Part shown: positions 3,518 to 52,301 of the stretch, piece by piece
Position numbering within the stretch: position 1 is the first letter of the stretch
Layout: every line of letters begins with the position of its first letter
Assembly (NCBI GenBank): GCA_022842935.1
Contig: JALHOP010000002.1
Coordinates: forward strand, 372,001 to 436,000
Length of the DNA: 64,000 nucleotides
Source of the DNA: Myxococcota bacterium
GTDB taxonomy: Bacteria > Myxococcota > XYA12-FULL-58-9 > JALHOP01
Direction of reading: 5' to 3'
Program-made: the position numbers and the translations under genes
The notes under the pieces: model-generated
Seen by the model: the letters and a program-made list of their open reading frames with translations, nothing else
Database searches by the model: none
What the model was told of the DNA's origin: nothing

Positions 3518-4849
3518 ATGACCGAATCCAAGAAGGCCCGCCACCAGAGCACCGACCACGTGGACAGGAAGTCGGTCACTGGTCACGGCTGCATGGTACG
3601 CGTCGTTCACGGACCCGACCGCGGACGCGAGTGCGCCATCACGAGCGCAGTCGTCATTGGCAAAGCGCCCGGTAGCGATCTGGTCCTGACAGACCCGACG
3701 GTGAGCGCATCGCACGCGCGCATCGAGGCGCGCGAGGATGGATTGCACGTCAGCGACCTGGGTAGCACCAACGGCACCTACTATCTCGAGACCCGGGTCC
3801 GCGACGTGGTGGTTGCGCCCGGTGGCGTGCTGAGCCTCGGGCAGACCCGCATTGCGCTCATGCCGCACGGTGGTGTCGCGGATGCGTCGGTGGCCCGCAA
3901 TGGCTACGGCGCCATCCTCGGTGCCTCACCCGCGATGCAACCGCTTTACGCCTTGCTGCACCGACTCGAGGGCCGGGAGCACACCGTGCTCGTGCTGGGC
4001 GAAACTGGCGTTGGTAAAGAACTGGTCGCTGGCGAGCTGCACCGCAACTCGCCGCGAAAAAACGGACCACTCGTGGTGTTCGATGCGAGCGCTGTCACCG
4101 CGAACCTCCTCGAGAGTCAGCTCTTCGGACATGTCCGTGGAGCGTTCACGGGTGCTGCGAACGATACTCTGGGGCTCTTCGAGCGAGCACGAGGCGGCAC
4201 CATTTTCCTCGACGAGATCGGCGAGCTGCCGCTCGACCTGCAACCAAGGCTGCTGCGCGTGCTCGAGTCGCGTACCATCCGACGTGTTGGCTCAGCCGAG
4301 ACACGCGACGTCGACGTCCGCGTGGTCGCAGCGACCAATCGCGACCTGGCGAGCGAGGTCGAGCGGGGACGCTTTCGTGAAGACCTCTACTATCGACTGC
4401 AAGTGCTGACCGTCGAAGTCCCACCGCTGCGGTCTCGCCCCGAAGACATACCAGTCCTCGTCCAGCACTTTTGCAAACAGCTCACCGGGGGTGAGATCTC
4501 CCTGTCGGAGTCGACACTCAATCTCTTCCAGAGCGGCTACAGCTGGCCGGGCAACGTCCGTGAGCTACGCAACGCGGTCGAGCGCGTGCTAACGGTTGGT
4601 GCGCTACCCGAGGCGTTGTCGTCCACCCCTCCCACGGAAGGCGAGCGCCCGGCAGGGGTCGAGGTTGACCTCACCGAACCGCTGCTCGAGGCCAAGCGCC
4701 GGGTCTCCGATGGCTTCGAGCGCGACTACTTGGTGAATCAACTGCGGCGTGCGCGCGACAACATCAGCGAAGCAGCGCGCCTGTCGGGGATGGACCGCAG
4801 CTACTTCAAGCGCCTCCTGAGGCGCCACAACTTACGTTGGTCGGAGTAA
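3518..4849 (+). CDS. FHA-domain sigma-54-dependent transcriptional activator
   Basis: Enhancer-binding protein of 443 aa with an FHA domain as sensor instead of a receiver domain. The FHA fold spans about 25-115 (core SASHARIE and LGSTNGTYY, residues 63-70 and 81-89). The AAA+ domain has Walker A GETGVGKE (161-168), an intact GAFTGA loop (208-213) that contacts sigma-54, and Walker B around FLDEIGEL (230-237). A Fis-type helix-turn-helix occupies the last 40 residues. FHA modules bind phospho-threonine peptides, so activity is probably set by the neighbouring Ser/Thr kinase; that link is inference from adjacency. FHA-type activators of this design are well known in myxobacteria. Confidence 0.93.
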
Positions 4850-43841: not shown

Positions 43842-45195
43842 CGAGCGAATGTTGACTGACGTAGCCGGGAGGGTGCTCGAGCTCGCCAAGAAACACGGCG
43901 CCTCGAGTGCCGACGCGGTCGTGTCGCGTGGCACCGAGTTCGAAGTGAAGGTCGCCGACGGCGCCATCGTCACGCTGACACAAGCAGTATCGAAGGGCAT
44001 GGGTCTGCGTGTCTTCGTCGACGGCAGGCTCGGCTTCTGCACCACCAGCGACTTCGCTGATGCGAGTCTCGCGTACGCCGTCGAGCGCGCCGTTCAGCTC
44101 GCCCGTGAGGCAGCACCCGACCCACACAACGGGCTCGTCGAGCTCAAGCCCGGTCTCGAGGTCGCGGGCGATGAGCTCGAGCTCTACGACCCCGCCGTAG
44201 CGGCCATTCCGACCGAGGAGAAGATCCGCTGGGCGCACACCCTCGAAGAGGCAGCCCGAGCCGCCGATCCGCGCGTCCGCAAGTTCCGCGATAGCGGTGT
44301 TTCGAATGGTGAGTCGCATACTGTGCTGGCGACCTCGGCAGGCGCCATACGCGCGGTGCGTAGCACTGGCATCGCGCTATGGTGCAATCCCATCGCTGAA
44401 GCCGACGGTCAGCTGCAGACCGAGGTCTGGTACGACTCGCGTACGCACGTAGGCGATCTCGAAGCTCCTGAAAAGGTGGGCCGCATCGCCGCAGAGCGCG
44501 CCGCGCGCATGCTGGGCGCAAAGCCCGTAAAGACGCAGCGCGCCCATCTCATCCTCGAGCCGGCGATGGCCGCAGGCTTCATGGGCAGCATGCTCGCCGC
44601 CATCGACGGCGACTCGGTGTACAAGAAGGCGTCCTTTTTGGCGGACAAGCTTGGTAAGCAGATCGGTAACAAGGCCCTGACCTTGGTCGACGATCCCCAC
44701 ATCAAACGCGGCAACGCGAGCTCACCCTTCGACGGCGAAGGACTGCCAACCTACAAGAAGAAGCTGGTCGATGCCGGTATCCTGACGACCTTCTTGTACG
44801 ACGGTTATACGGCGCGCAAAGCCGGCGTGAAGCCGACCGCGAGCGCCAAACGAGGCTACAGCTCGCCGCCGCACGCCGGCGTCTTCAACTTCATCGTGCA
44901 ACCTGGTGCTGTCTCTCCCGCGTCCATCTGGAAAGACGTCGACTGCGCGCTCGTGCTCACGCGTGGTCTCGGCCGCGGCTTGAATAGCGTCAGTGGCGAA
45001 TACTCGCGCGGCGCGAATGGGCTGTGGATCGAGCGCGGCGAGGTCGTGCACCCAGTGCAAGAGGTCACCATCGCCGGTGACTACCTCGCGATGTTGCAGA
45101 ACATCGACGCGGTCGGAGACGACCTGCAGATGCGCGGCTCGTCGGGGGCACCGACGATGCGCATCGCGGATGTGACGATCAGCGGAACGCGCTGA
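43834..45195 (+). CDS. pmbA: TldE/PmbA partner subunit
   Basis: 453-residue non-catalytic partner of TldD (PmbA-like). It shows the family layout (GFCTTSDFADASLAYAVERA near the start; GFMGSMLAAIDGDSVYKKAS; LTLVDDPHIKRGNASSPFDG; the end VSGEYSRGANGLWIERGE) and lacks the HExxxH zinc motif, as expected for TldE. The GTG start overlaps the TldD stop; GGGGG lies just upstream. TldE shapes the channel through which unfolded substrate reaches TldD. It is convergent with a small gene at 45241-45537. Confidence 0.93.
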   Translation: MSDERMLTDVAGRVLELAKKHGASSADAVVSRGTEFEVKVADGAIVTLTQAVSKGMGLRVFVDGRLGFCTTSDFADASLAYAVERAVQLAREAAPDPHNGLVELKPGLEVAGDELELYDPAVAAIPTEEKIRWAHTLEEAARAADPRVRKFRDSGVSNGESHTVLATSAGAIRAVRSTGIALWCNPIAEADGQLQTEVWYDSRTHVGDLEAPEKVGRIAAERAARMLGAKPVKTQRAHLILEPAMAAGFMGSMLAAIDGDSVYKKASFLADKLGKQIGNKALTLVDDPHIKRGNASSPFDGEGLPTYKKKLVDAGILTTFLYDGYTARKAGVKPTASAKRGYSSPPHAGVFNFIVQPGAVSPASIWKDVDCALVLTRGLGRGLNSVSGEYSRGANGLWIERGEVVHPVQEVTIAGDYLAMLQNIDAVGDDLQMRGSSGAPTMRIADVTISGTR

Positions 45196-45240
45196 GGCCG
45201 CCGTCGTTGACGCGCGGCACACCTCTCCGAAGCGGGCACT

Positions 45241-45537
45241 TCAAGTCAGGCGTGGTCGCTGCGCCTGCGAGGCTGGCACGTGACTCTCTGCGAGCTTTGC
45301 GAGAATGGCGTCCCAGGTACCAGACTCGACCGACTTTCTGGCCAAGGTGTTTTTCGTTGGTGGGCTCGGTGGTGCAGCGCGTTGCACACCATCGCCGAGC
45401 TTTTCCAGGTCGATGTATTCGTCACCGTTAGCGAGGCTCATGGCCTCGGCGTTGCTGACCTGAGCGACCTCGGCGTCAGACAGTAGCTTCATAATCGCCG
45501 CCCGCGTGCAATACGGCCTACGTTTGTCCTGGTTCAT
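45241..45537 (-). CDS. Small hypothetical protein under a sigma-54 promoter
   Basis: 97-residue protein opening MNQDKRRPYCTRAAIMKLLS; Arg/Lys-rich start, helical middle (AEVAQVSNAEAMSLANGDEY) and a Pro-rich linker near residue 65. Start ATG with GGGAG about five bases upstream. A strong -24/-12 promoter at 45601-45586 would give a 38-base leader, so it is expected to be activator-controlled, for example by the regulator encoded at 51282. Family not recognised. It is convergent with TldE, so a functional link to peptide processing is only speculation. Confidence 0.7.
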   Translation of the reverse strand: MNQDKRRPYCTRAAIMKLLSDAEVAQVSNAEAMSLANGDEYIDLEKLGDGVQRAAPPSPPTKNTLARKSVESGTWDAILAKLAESHVPASQAQRPRLT

Positions 45538-45585
45538 CGCAGCTCCCAAGTCGCGTGAGACATGCACGACGACCTCAACCGACAG

Positions 45586-45601
45586 AGCAACAAGCATGCC
45601 C
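45586..45601 (-). promoter_or_regulatory. Sigma-54 promoter for the 45241-45537 gene
   Basis: GGGCATG-N4-TTGCT on the minus strand matches TGGCACG-N4-TTGCW at 10 of 12 positions, with GG (45600-45599) and GC (45588-45587) ten bases apart. The expected start near 45575 leaves a 38-base leader with a GGGAG site before the ATG. Confidence 0.65.
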
Positions 45602-45652
45602 CACTGCCTGCGACGCGTGTTTCATCGCCAACAGCGTCACCGCGTTACGCAG

Positions 45653-45669
45653 CCCATCGAATCGATGGG
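45653..45669. promoter_or_regulatory. Palindromic operator-like site between divergent genes
   Basis: CCCATCGA (45653-45660) and TCGATGGG (45662-45669) form an 8-bp inverted repeat around one base. It sits between the small gene and the FixJ-like regulator, about 90 bases before the regulator start. The symmetry suits a dimeric DNA-binding protein rather than an RNA hairpin. Confidence 0.45.
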
Positions 45670-45758
45670 GCGATGCAGTCACTTTGAGGGAGCAAGCGTG
45701 ACATTAGCGCCCCGCATGCACAGCTTCACTCTGAGGTAGCGGAAACGACGAAGGTATC

Positions 45759-46430
45759 ATGCGACGCACGACGTTCGAGTCGCCAGGGCGACGAGCACCC
45801 GCTGTGGTCTTCGTCGTCGAAGACGACGACGACACGCGCGAGGGAATGCGACGGGTCCTTGGCTCGGGCGAATTCGTGATAGCGGACTTCTCGTCGACTG
45901 AAGCGTTCCTCGCCGCGTACCAGCCAAGTGAGGTCGGCTGTCTTTTGCTCGACGCCTTCATGCCAGGGGCTGGTGGCATGGCTTTGCTGCGGCACATGCG
46001 AACGCTTGTTCATGACCTTCCCGTCGTCATGATCACAGGTCGCGGCTGCGTTTCGCTTGCCGTGGACGCGATGCGCCACGGCGCCTTCGACTTCATCGAG
46101 AAACCCGCTGGGCGCGAGACGCTCATCGCCGCCATCGGCCTGGCGCTCGCAGAGTCGCGACGGTTGCGGGGCGCGCGTGATGAACGCGGATCGTCCATCT
46201 CGGACCTCGCGAGTCTGACGAGCCGGCAAAAGCAAATCCTCGGCCGCATTCTTGCTGGCGTTGCCAACAGAGCCATCGCAGTGGAGCTCGGAATCAGCCA
46301 ACGAACCGTCGAGAACCATCGCGCCACGGTCATGCGGAAGATGGGCGCGCACTCGGTCGCCCAGCTCACGCGGATGGCCGTCATGGCACGTTGGGCCGGG
46401 CTCGACGCCATCGAGGTCTCTGAGGCGTAG
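45759..46430 (+). CDS. FixJ/NarL-type response regulator
   Basis: 223-residue two-component regulator. The receiver domain has the acidic cluster VVEDDDDTREG (20-29), the phosphoacceptor aspartate in LLLDAFMPG and the conserved lysine in DFIEKPAG. The C-terminus is a LuxR-type helix-turn-helix (LTSRQKQILGRILAGVANRA and GISQRTVENHRATV). No histidine kinase gene is adjacent, so it is an orphan response regulator. It starts the plus-strand group that continues into the DUF6544-like gene (14-base gap) and oleate hydratase, so it may control these lipid/stress genes; that is inference. A 17-bp inverted repeat upstream is a candidate operator. Confidence 0.93.
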   Translation: MRRTTFESPGRRAPAVVFVVEDDDDTREGMRRVLGSGEFVIADFSSTEAFLAAYQPSEVGCLLLDAFMPGAGGMALLRHMRTLVHDLPVVMITGRGCVSLAVDAMRHGAFDFIEKPAGRETLIAAIGLALAESRRLRGARDERGSSISDLASLTSRQKQILGRILAGVANRAIAVELGISQRTVENHRATVMRKMGAHSVAQLTRMAVMARWAGLDAIEVSEA

Positions 46431-47629: not shown

Positions 47630-49201
47630 ATGCACCAAAATGCGAGGGCCTATCTCATCGGCGGCGGCATTGGTTCGCTCGCCGCTGCTGCCTTCATGAT
47701 CCGCGATAGCAGCATCCACGGATACAACATCACCATCTTCGACTCCGCTTCCACGATGGGCGGAAGCCTCGACGCGCGTGGTGATGCGAATGCCGGCTAC
47801 TCGATGCGTGGCGGGCGCATGCTCACGATGGAGAACTACGAGTGCACCTGGGACCTATTCAAATCGATCCCGTCACTTGCGTCCGCGGGAAGGTCGGTTT
47901 TCGAGGAGACTGTCGCGTTCAACGAGCTGAATCGCTCGCATGCCATGGCGCGTCTGGTCGACCGTCAACGCGCGATCATGCCGGTCGCATCGATGGGCCT
48001 ATCGAACACAGATCGCGCTGAGCTGTTGAAGCTCGTTCTCGCTGAGGAAAGTGACATGGGCGCAACGCGAATCACCGATTGGCTGTCCCCCGGATTCTTC
48101 GCCACCAAGCTCTGGTGCATGTGGGCGACGACGTTCGCTTTTCAACCATGGCATAGCGCCGTCGAGCTGAGACGCTATCTGCACCGCTTCATGAAGGAAT
48201 TCTCGCGGATCGACACGCTCGCGGGGGTCAAGCGGACGGCGTTCAATCAGTACGACTCACTGGTCCTACCATTGCAGAGATGGCTCATCGACCATGGAGT
48301 GCACATCGAGCCAGGCTGCACAGTGACAGCATTGGACTACGAAACTACGCACAACGAGCTGATCGTGACCGGGCTGCGATGTCTGCGCGGGGGAAAGACT
48401 GATCGCGTCCAAGTGAACGAGGGCGACTTCGTCTTTCTTCAGAACGGCTCGATGACGGACGCCTCGAGCATCGGGTCCATGACAACGGCACCACCCAAGC
48501 TTACGAAGCGCGACAGCGTGAGCTGGACGTTGTGGGAGAAGCTTGCGGTCGACTGTCCTGGTTTTGGTAACCCCGCCGCGTTCAACGACTGTGTCGCTCA
48601 ATCCGCGTGGCAATCGTTCTCGGTGACCGTGAGAACTTCGACCTTCTTCGAAGCGATGCAACGCTTTAGCGGCAACGCCGCTGGCACCGGCGGCCTGGTC
48701 ACGTTTCAGGACTCGAACTGGCTCATGTCGATTGTTCTCGCGAAGCAACCGCACTTTGCGAACCAGCCATCCGATACCGACGTGTTCTGGGGCTATGGGC
48801 TCTCGGCGGATCGCATCGGCAACTTCGTGGCAAAGCCAATGGAGGACTGCAACGGCGCCGAGATTCTGCGCGAGCTATGCGGACACATGCGTTTTGACGT
48901 GGAGATACTCGACTCGGCGGTCTGCATTCCGTGTCGCATGCCGTACATCACGAGCATGTTCATGCCGCGGCTCCCGGGTGACCGCCCCGAGGTGGTCCCG
49001 AAAGGCTCGAAGAACCTCGCGCTCGTCAGTCAGTTCGTCGAGATCCCGGAGGACGTCGTGTTTACGGTCGAATATTCGGTGCGCGCCGCGCAGATGGCGA
49101 CCTACGCCCTACTCGGTATCGACCGCCCGGTCCTTCGCGTCACGCCGCACGACAAGTCGCTGCATGTGCAGCTCAAGGCGATGGTCAAGGCTCTCGTGTG
49201 A
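47630..49201 (+). CDS. ohyA: Oleate hydratase
   Basis: 523-residue FAD-dependent fatty-acid hydratase (formerly myosin-cross-reactive antigen) adding water to the cis-9 double bond of oleic acid to give 10-hydroxystearate. The Rossmann FAD motif IGGGIGSLAAAAF starts at residue 10; STMGGSLDARGDANAGYSMR carries conserved active-site and FAD residues. Oleate hydratases detoxify unsaturated fatty acids in membranes and hosts. GGGAGC lies just before the ATG. It is followed by an amphipathic helical protein and a glycine-zipper membrane protein, suggesting lipid-surface association. Confidence 0.92.
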   Translation: MHQNARAYLIGGGIGSLAAAAFMIRDSSIHGYNITIFDSASTMGGSLDARGDANAGYSMRGGRMLTMENYECTWDLFKSIPSLASAGRSVFEETVAFNELNRSHAMARLVDRQRAIMPVASMGLSNTDRAELLKLVLAEESDMGATRITDWLSPGFFATKLWCMWATTFAFQPWHSAVELRRYLHRFMKEFSRIDTLAGVKRTAFNQYDSLVLPLQRWLIDHGVHIEPGCTVTALDYETTHNELIVTGLRCLRGGKTDRVQVNEGDFVFLQNGSMTDASSIGSMTTAPPKLTKRDSVSWTLWEKLAVDCPGFGNPAAFNDCVAQSAWQSFSVTVRTSTFFEAMQRFSGNAAGTGGLVTFQDSNWLMSIVLAKQPHFANQPSDTDVFWGYGLSADRIGNFVAKPMEDCNGAEILRELCGHMRFDVEILDSAVCIPCRMPYITSMFMPRLPGDRPEVVPKGSKNLALVSQFVEIPEDVVFTVEYSVRAAQMATYALLGIDRPVLRVTPHDKSLHVQLKAMVKALV

Positions 49202-50484: not shown

Positions 50485-51144
50485 TCAATAGGTCATCTGC
50501 ATCTTCACGTCATCGACGACATGCGTGACGCCCGGCGCGGACCATGCGGCACTCGCTGCGTCCTCGATCGTCTGCCAGGACGAGGCGGTCCCCGTGAGCG
50601 TAACCTTGCCGCCATCGGCCTCGACGTTGATGGATTTGGCGTCAGTCGTTGCTTGACGTTCGAGAGCCTCTAGAACCTTCTCCTTCACCAGCGATACCGA
50701 AACATCCGGCTCGAGTGTGATCGCATTGCTGACCGTCTTCACACCCATCAAGTAGCGCACGGCTCTCTCAGCCGCAGCGCGTTGATAGTGCCACGCGACT
50801 TCGCCCTCGAGGGTCACCGCACCATCCGTGACCCGCGCCGTAACGGTCTTGGGCGTGAGGATGTCCCACTTCAGAGCGTTCTGGATTGCCCCCGCGATTT
50901 CGGAGTCACTCCGCGCGTGTGCCGATTGTAGCTTAACAGTCAGATCCTCAGCGACCGTGCGCACGCCGGCGACACGTTTGCTTGCGCGTTCGGCTGCCCA
51001 CTTTTGCGGATAGGTGTCGACGACACCGCGCAGAGTCACGGCTCCGTCGTCCACCGTAACGCCAATCTGCGCTGCGTTGACCGCCGGCTCCCAGCGGAGC
51101 TCGGATTCGATGTCTCGCTTCAGATTCAAGTCAGTTTTCTTCAT
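50485..51144 (-). CDS. Protein with three BON domains
   Basis: 219-residue protein of three repeated BON domains: about 8-72 (VTVDDGAVTLRGVVDTYPQK), 78-145 (VTDGAVTLEGEVAWHYQRAA) and 152-218 (VEADGGKVTLTGTASSWQTI). BON domains bind phospholipids or osmotic-shock ligands in OsmY, CsgA-like and mechanosensitive proteins. No signal peptide is visible, so a cytoplasmic or membrane-surface location. The family is typical of stress operons. It faces the sigma-54 activator at 51282, sharing a 137-base divergent gap with it. The start matches the MKKTDLNLKRDIESEL pattern usual for the family. Confidence 0.9.
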   Translation of the reverse strand: MKKTDLNLKRDIESELRWEPAVNAAQIGVTVDDGAVTLRGVVDTYPQKWAAERASKRVAGVRTVAEDLTVKLQSAHARSDSEIAGAIQNALKWDILTPKTVTARVTDGAVTLEGEVAWHYQRAAAERAVRYLMGVKTVSNAITLEPDVSVSLVKEKVLEALERQATTDAKSINVEADGGKVTLTGTASSWQTIEDAASAAWSAPGVTHVVDDVKMQMTY

Positions 51145-51281
51145 GCTCTGTCCGGTGCACGATGCACGCCACTGCCGTGCTCAGGCGTTCACATGACGAT
51201 GTCAGCGCGTTGCGGAAACTACGCATAGCCGACTCCATCACAACGACTTACTGTCTCCATCAGCCTGAAGGAGTCGTCGAT

Positions 51282-52301
51282 ATGCCAGCCAGCGACGAAC
51301 GAAATCCGCGCCGCCTCCACGAGGTGCCCGATGAAGATCAGCACACCTCCAGAGGTGCAGAAGGCACCGTAGCGCAGAGCGAAGTGATGCGAGCCGTTGT
51401 TGACCTCACGCGCAGGGTAGCCAAGTCCAACGCGACCGTGGTGGTCAGTGGCGAGAGCGGCACGGGCAAAGAGCGCATCGCGCGCATGCTTCACACTGAG
51501 TCCAGTCGTGCGGACGGTCAGTTCATCGCGATCAACTGCGGAGCGGTCAGCGAGACCCTCCTCGAGAGCGAGCTCTTCGGTCACGCGCGTGGCGCCTTCA
51601 CTGGGGCGTTGCACGACCGCCCCGGCATCTTCGAGGCGGCGAATGGCGGCACCCTGCTTCTCGACGAAATCAACTCCGTATCGCCAGCCATGCAGGTCAA
51701 GCTTCTGCGCGCCATTCAGGAGCGTGAGGTACGACGGGTTGGCGAGAACAAGGTACGAGCGGTGGATGTGCGCGTGGTTGCGGCCACGAACAAGGAGCTC
51801 CTTGAAGCCGTCGCCTCAGGCACCTTCCGGGAAGACCTCTACTACCGTTTGAATGTCGTCACGATTCGCGTGCCCGCGCTTCGCGATCGCAGAGACGACA
51901 TTCTTCCACTCGCGCGTGTGCTGCTCGCTGGAGCGGCTCGCCGGATGCAACGCAGAGAGCTCGTGCTTTCGCCAGTCGCTGCCGCATCGCTGCTCAAGTA
52001 CCGTTGGCCAGGGAACGTCAGGGAGCTCGGAAACGCGATGGAGAGAGCACTCGCGCTCGCCACCGGCGAACGACTGCAGCTCGAAGACCTGCCCGCTCAG
52101 GTTCGCCGAATCACTGCTGCACCGACTGATATCGTTGGGCCTGTGCGCCGGCTCGCGGACGTCGAGAAGGACTACATTCTCGCCGCCCTCCGCGCCAACA
52201 ACGGCAATCAAACGCACACTGCGGAGCAGCTGGCCATCGGCTCGGCAACCCTTTACCGCAAGCTGAAGGTCTACAGAGCGCCAGCGCCCCAGGCTGACTA
52301 G
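51282..52301 (+). CDS. Sigma-54 activator lacking a sensory domain
   Basis: 339-residue enhancer-binding protein consisting of AAA+ and HTH domains only. Walker A GESGTGKE (57-64), GAFTGA loop (104-109), Walker B around LLLDEINS (124-131), sensor region [12 protein letters not shown]-like ([13 protein letters not shown]) and a Fis-type HTH (NQTHTAEQLAIGSATLYRKL). There is only a 30-residue polar N-terminus and no receiver, FHA, PAS or GAF domain, so activity must be set by expression level or by a partner protein. It starts at ATG 51282 with AAGGAG upstream. It is the natural candidate for driving the sigma-54 promoters in front of the 45241 and DUF1328 genes; that assignment is inference. 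Confidence 0.93.
   Translation: MPASDERNPRRLHEVPDEDQHTSRGAEGTVAQSEVMRAVVDLTRRVAKSNATVVVSGESGTGKERIARMLHTESSRADGQFIAINCGAVSETLLESELFGHARGAFTGALHDRPGIFEAANGGTLLLDEINSVSPAMQVKLLRAIQEREVRRVGENKVRAVDVRVVAATNKELLEAVASGTFREDLYYRLNVVTIRVPALRDRRDDILPLARVLLAGAARRMQRRELVLSPVAAASLLKYRWPGNVRELGNAMERALALATGERLQLEDLPAQVRRITAAPTDIVGPVRRLADVEKDYILAALRANNGNQTHTAEQLAIGSATLYRKLKVYRAPAPQAD

Follow-up and report, generated by a model that had tools for sequence, protein, structure and literature searches.

We propose that the small gene at positions 45241-45537 (minus strand) of the analysed DNA, a stretch of 64,000 nucleotides referred to here as the window, is a stress gene transcribed by sigma-54 RNA polymerase and switched on by the sigma-54 activator encoded at 51162-52301 (plus strand) through a palindrome at 45653-45669, and that a nearby BON-domain gene is controlled likewise; we give this reading a probability of roughly 0.6. 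The activator, of the NtrC class, would bind the palindrome as its enhancer and open the promoter at 45586-45601 by ATP hydrolysis in response to a stress signal, and the BON gene would come under the same activator through a dyad at 51257-51271. The 98-residue product of the small gene is probably a domain with an accessory or sensory role alongside YflT/DUF1269-like proteins or CBS modules. From the sequence comparisons, the predicted sigma-54 promoter is well supported and the proposed pairing of enhancer and activator moderately supported, and a function for the small protein is suggested only by association.

The small gene and its upstream region

The small gene reads from an ATG at 45537-45535 to 45241 on the minus strand and encodes 98 residues, one more than the 97 of the initial annotation; an in-frame ATG further upstream, at 45597, would give an alternative product of 118 residues. 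The motif GGGCATG-N4-TTGCT previously noted before this gene is real: the putative sigma-54 promoter (-24/-12) GGGCATGCTTGTTGCT lies at 45601-45586 on the minus strand, as GGGCATG-CTTG-TTGCT with GG-N10-GC spacing. Since transcription would start near 45575, judging by its -12 element, the predicted leader spans 38 bases (45538-45575, minus strand) and includes a GGGAG at 45543-45547 (minus strand), five bases before the ATG; the sequence bears out both of these features as they had been described. The palindrome CCCATCGAATCGATGGG (45653-45669, no strand) is also exactly as claimed and where it had been placed, between the sigma-54 site and a gene for a FixJ-like regulator. It is a perfect 8-1-8 palindrome, CCCATCGA-A-TCGATGGG, which stands 51 bases upstream of the sigma-54 site; 60 bp separate its centre from the -24 element. 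Scans of the window for tRNA genes and Rfam families gave no matches.

A family of small domains

The 98-residue protein has no match in Pfam, NCBIfam or PHROGs. A single-sequence search of 195 genomes of the phylum found 14 places in 10 genomes, its own included. One of these (L014/L031, genome G096) was rejected as a relative, its frame looking by eye like the C-terminal end of an activator of the NtrC type; without this false match, 12 relatives remain, spread over 8 genomes of the phylum besides that of the window. A profile search recovered the 13 remaining places as strong matches, and we disregarded five weak hits (E 0.004-0.01). Of the 17 loci that turned up when species genomes were scanned, 11 were new and six lay on contigs that were in the set before. 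The family thus assembled has 24 distinct loci, 23 besides the window: 19 in Myxococcota, two in Deltaproteobacteria, two in Opitutaceae and one in Desulfocurvus. No relative was found in the other 7 genomes of the window's own order, and viral contigs and plasmids held no relatives of the proteins tried. In the two Opitutaceae bins (L033, L038) the small domain occurs without a good sigma-54 site. Seven positions (R12, L19, G38, L44, G50, T74 and W75) are invariant in both alignment A1 (13 rows) and alignment A3 (18 rows), the latter having 13 invariant positions altogether. Two structural models (mean pLDDT 79 and 78) predict a fold of two helices, three short strands and one helix, for which Foldseek returned no match better than E = 2 in the PDB with either model. 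We considered a toxin-antitoxin or phage origin and set it aside because of the stress-related fusions described below.

Recurrence of the sigma-54 site

For the scoring of sigma-54 sites we used an approximate matrix of base frequencies; with it the site of the small gene scores 11.9 bits. Compared with the consensus TGGCACG-N4-TTGCW it has the GG-N10-GC core and 6 of the 8 other consensus positions. It outscores shuffled versions of the region upstream of the gene at p = 0.033 and ranks joint eighth, by the same approximate matrix, among the 31 16-mers of the window that score above 9.5 bits. The loose pattern GG-N8-YYGCW is not enriched in the window, where it occurs 91 times against 111 expected, nor is a strict pattern enriched across the whole genome, with 12 matches against 10 for the reversed pattern. 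The sigma-54 site and the palindrome, each judged alone, are modest evidence, and it is the comparison with relatives that makes the sites convincing.

For that comparison we counted the promoters of 21 of the 24 loci, leaving out L021 and L025, each apparently the second gene of its operon, and L043, which has 53 bases upstream. Sites of at least 11 bits within 120 bp precede 11 of the 21 family genes and 5 of 110 neighbouring genes at the same loci (Fisher 3e-7), a crude control, since each neighbour was taken to start where its longest open frame begins. Two of those five neighbours belong to a single locus, L040, and one of them is its BON gene. A count made without the matrix gave 11/21 against 8/110 (4e-6), or 10/20 when the window was excluded (2e-5), and 11 of the 21 family promoters outscore their own shuffles at p < 0.05, for a combined p of 1.5e-10. 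At L027, L028, L044 and L046 the sigma-54-like site begins exactly 29 bases before the chosen ATG, which implies either near-leaderless messages or misplaced starts; the site of the BON gene in the window begins 27 bases before its start. The genome has one rpoN, and together with the recurrence of sites in the family this upholds the earlier claim of a sigma-54 promoter. We regard it as very unlikely that the match is accidental and an ordinary promoter drives the small gene: matches of this kind are frequent in the DNA of the window, and no site of 9 bits was found in eight of the 21 family promoters (both Opitutaceae, Desulfocurvus, L020, L022, L023, L034 and L035), but the family is enriched over its neighbours whether the window is included or not, and a crude scan of 45150-45800 gave no sigma-70-like promoter.

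The palindrome as a member of a dyad class

Perfect palindromes of this kind occur in the window at chance number (9 found, 8.6 expected); the probability of one falling within the 221-base intergenic gap is 0.0135. A role as a genome-wide operator was rejected: the genome search gave a single exact copy of the palindrome and four other places at two mismatches. Read as a dyad, CCATC-GATTC-GATGG, it fits the class CCWTC-N5-GAWGG. A second member, CCTTC-AGGCT-GATGG, matches it in arms and 5-base gap and lies upstream of the BON gene. This gene, the second predicted target of the circuit, encodes a three-BON-domain protein at 50485-51144 on the minus strand, divergent from the activator gene, and has a putative sigma-54 promoter, TGGCGTGCATCGTGCA, at 51156-51171 (minus strand; approximate matrix). 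We propose its dyad, CCATCAGCCTGAAGG (51257-51271, no strand), as the second enhancer copy. The same region holds two exact copies of the half-site TGATGGAG, 22 bp apart, at 51255-51262 and 51233-51240; the 22-bp spacing is found again in L023, and the promoter comparison revealed TGATGGAG-like half-sites upstream of L023, L026, L027, L028 and L029.

Four copies of CCWTC-N5-GAWGG are present in the window, compared with 0.25 expected: one before the small gene, one before the BON gene and two within coding frames (30244 and 41752). Only the first two precede a sigma-54 site of at least 11 bits. Two such pairs of dyad and site arose in none of 300 order-2 Markov sequences, and one pair in 3 of 300. 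When dyads with different gaps were compared over 29 sequences (397 kb), those with a gap of 5 lay 30-120 bp from a 9-bit sigma-54 site in 9 of 34 cases and those with other gaps in 6 of 105 (Fisher 0.002), one of the nine falling in a coding frame. Because the class was partly defined on the same data, we take these dyad statistics as support and not as an independent test. Among family promoters, a dyad with at most one mismatch was present within 260 bp in 3 of 21 (the window, L029 and L033). At L033 the dyad has no sigma-54 site; L023, L026, L027 and L028 have half-sites only, and most other family promoters show nothing clear. Since a near-complete dyad and a sigma-54 site coincide in only 2 of the 21, the circuit would vary within the family. 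A pattern of half-site plus sigma-54 site gave 58 hits in nine genomes against 36 for controls, one genome having fewer hits than controls, and we do not take it as proof because hits in promoters and in coding sequence were not sorted. The dyad upstream of the -24 element recurs at other sigma-54 promoters, the BON gene's included, and in this respect the palindrome behaves like a regulatory site, as had been suggested.

A candidate activator and its relatives

The protein encoded at 51162-52301, 6 kb from the small gene, is our proposed reader of both dyads. It has the Sigma54_activat (AAA+) domain and Fis helix-turn-helix of an NtrC-class activator, and a domain scan found no sensor domain. 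The gene may actually begin near 51283, because the start assigned to it overlaps the BON promoter. The window encodes a second sigma-54 activator, with an FHA domain, at 3518-4849.

Relatives of the 51162-52301 protein with 62-68% identity were found in six genomes (G055, G076, G077, G078, G155 and G161); at the same threshold G034 and G119 gave none. The six have 30-34 of 41 helix-turn-helix residues in common with it, as against 21-26 of 41 for four other activators (L101 was left out of this comparison). The sensors attached to this similar DNA-reading helix (window protein and L094-L099) are XylR_N and V4R in the activators of G076, G077, G078, G155 and G161 (V4R just under the cut-off in two), a receiver in that of G055 and none found in that of the window.

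Dyads lie 2-6 kb from the similar-helix activators in three of these genomes. In G055 the copy CCATCGATTCGAAGG, one base of 15 off the palindrome, is 2.4 kb from the activator and first surfaced in the dyad search of the 29 sequences; it lies before a gene encoding a receiver-bearing PAS histidine kinase, and 69 bp separate its centre from a 12.6-bit site, compared with 60 bp in the window. This kinase (L156, 11040-12848), found with its sigma-54 site and near copy of the palindrome close to the activator, is possibly the partner kinase of the receiver-type G055 activator. In G076 the dyad of the BON gene recurs letter for letter, CCATCAGCCTGAAGG, before a CsbD gene that also has a sigma-54 site (L152, 12494), 3.4 kb from the activator. 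The G161 contig carries the activator, a gene of the small-domain family and three dyads (two with one mismatch), all three within 6 kb of the activator. Two of them lie between divergent sigma-54 sites: in L155 two divergent gene pairs (9551/9692 and 12637/12764) each have one dyad flanked on both sides by such sites. G077 has a looser dyad, CCTTCGATTTGAAGG, with a weak site of 9.7 bits, and the activator surroundings in G078 and G155 showed no full dyad near a site, only half-sites with sites. From the dyads of G055, G076 and G161 and the differing sensor domains, it appears that the DNA-reading domain tends to be accompanied by the dyad, whichever sensor the activator carries.

The genome encodes 27 strong sigma-54 activator domains, so another activator could read the palindrome. 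It seems to us rather unlikely that the small gene is under sigma-54 control with the palindrome a chance dyad or the site of a different activator. The number of activators, the chance-level count of perfect palindromes in the window and the absence of a full dyad from most family promoters elsewhere fit such an explanation; against a chance dyad, the same 5-base gap and core are found near related activators in three genomes and at the BON gene, and the centres of the recurring dyads stay 50-93 bp from the -24 element.

The FixJ-like neighbour

The initial annotation tied the palindrome and the small gene to the divergent neighbour at 45759-46430 (plus strand), a FixJ-like response regulator with receiver and GerE domains. 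FixJ-type regulators lack the AAA+ domain that sigma-54 promoters require and so cannot open them. In tblastn searches the FixJ-like gene was absent from the 23 other family loci, some of which extend over only 3-5 kb; the one match, in L019, falls on the receiver domain of an activator of the NtrC type. Across the 195 genomes of the phylum the best candidates for orthologues, among at most 15 scored per genome, have 35-41% identity, so that no conserved FixJ site can be traced, and we found no conserved linkage of a FixJ-like gene and the site. No histidine kinase was seen among the window proteins scanned, which represent part of its genes, and the regulator may be an orphan, as it had been called. 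The wiring through this neighbour is therefore probably wrong, in view of the missing AAA+ domain and the lack of conservation beside the family, and the FixJ-like protein probably does not activate the small gene.

That the palindrome is nonetheless an operator of the FixJ-like regulator, controlling its own gene or the small gene, we judge distinctly unlikely. The palindrome does lie in the gap separating the two genes, some 90 bp upstream of the FixJ start, a distance from which FixJ/NarL-type proteins can act, and palindromic sites suit dimeric regulators; but for the small gene this would need activation of a sigma-54 promoter, of which such proteins are incapable, the regulator gene was not found beside the family elsewhere, its best matches in the phylum are 35-41% identical among the candidates scored, and the dyad recurs by genes where no FixJ neighbour was seen. 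The 51162-52301 activator remains our preferred reader.

Fusions, neighbours and stress context

In L019, L020, L024 and L029 the small domain forms the C-terminal part of a single frame whose N-terminal part is YflT/DUF1269-like; the Pfam cut-off is passed by the partner in L020 and L024 (YflT) and L019 (DUF1269), and that of L029 falls just under it. In L047 the domain follows a CBS pair in one fusion protein. At L025 the domain gene is directly downstream of a YflT gene, at L021 the upstream gene has 32% tblastn identity to the fusion partner of L024 and no Pfam match, and YflT genes are also near the domain in L035 and L038. Among 39 neighbouring proteins scanned around the relatives, 16 match nothing and only a few are stress proteins. 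Those that fit a stress context are YflT, Hsp70 (L035), BON (L040) and a trypsin/PDZ protease (L046); no link to stress is obvious for others such as RapZ, a desaturase and a P-type ATPase. We suggest a stress role for the 98-residue protein mainly because of the YflT/DUF1269-like and CBS fusions. Its earlier description as a 'tightly controlled effector' is not borne out, and a stress protein is the better guess.

In the window itself, the roughly 6 kb beyond the FixJ gene encode a DUF6544 protein, an oleate hydratase, a coiled protein, a glycine-rich protein with a sub-threshold DUF1269 match, the BON protein and the sigma-54 activator. The oleate hydratase (47630-49201; NF010584 over its cut-off) lies between the DUF6544 protein and the BON/activator pair.

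Taken more widely, and with somewhat less than even confidence, these data may point to a Myxococcota sigma-54 stress regulon in which the enhancer dyad and the DNA-reading domain are kept and the sensor of the activator is swapped between lineages (XylR_N/V4R, a receiver or none), with an undescribed domain of about 80 residues among the outputs, alone or joined to YflT-like or CBS proteins. If the swap is true, one stress regulon could be connected to different signals with its DNA code kept. An unannotated domain family thereby gains a probable regulatory setting and probable partners, and a testable pair of enhancer and activator is offered in a genome with so many sigma-54 activators.

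Comparison with known systems

Our literature search on V4R, YflT, CsbD, BON and DUF1269 in connection with sigma-54 gave, among the matches listed, no title on such a regulon or on the domain; papers behind subscription were mostly outside its scope. YflT (PF11181) and DUF1269 (PF06897) are the most frequent fusion partners of the family, but the 98-residue protein corresponds to the extra C-terminal domain and has no YflT domain itself. Like PspF, the window activator is short, with an AAA+ domain, a Fis helix-turn-helix and no sensor, and it matches TIGR02974 over the AAA+ part; unlike PspF, it scores 251 bits where the cut-off of that model is 444, and its relatives do have sensors. The activators of G076, G077, G078, G155 and G161 resemble those of the XylR/DmpR type, with XylR_N/V4R and a similar helix-turn-helix, and differ in this from the window activator, in which no sensor domain was found, and from the G055 relative, which has a receiver. 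The available text of a survey of sigma-54 regulons names V4R among the sensors of activators and describes the loss of rpoN as lethal in M. xanthus (PMC12316311).

A known parallel in layout is NmpR of M. xanthus. According to the available text of the report (PMC11841059), it recognises GCGCA-N5-TGCGC dyads that lie upstream of sigma-54 sites, and it controls a regulon linked to oxygen, with a universal stress protein among its members. As with NmpR in that text, the system proposed here would combine an NtrC-class activator with a dyad of two 5-base arms and a 5-base gap upstream of sigma-54 sites. The window dyad differs from that of NmpR in sequence, and the proposed activator has no receiver, NmpR being described there as a two-component regulator; NmpR also has several sites per promoter, whereas the small gene of the window has one full dyad.
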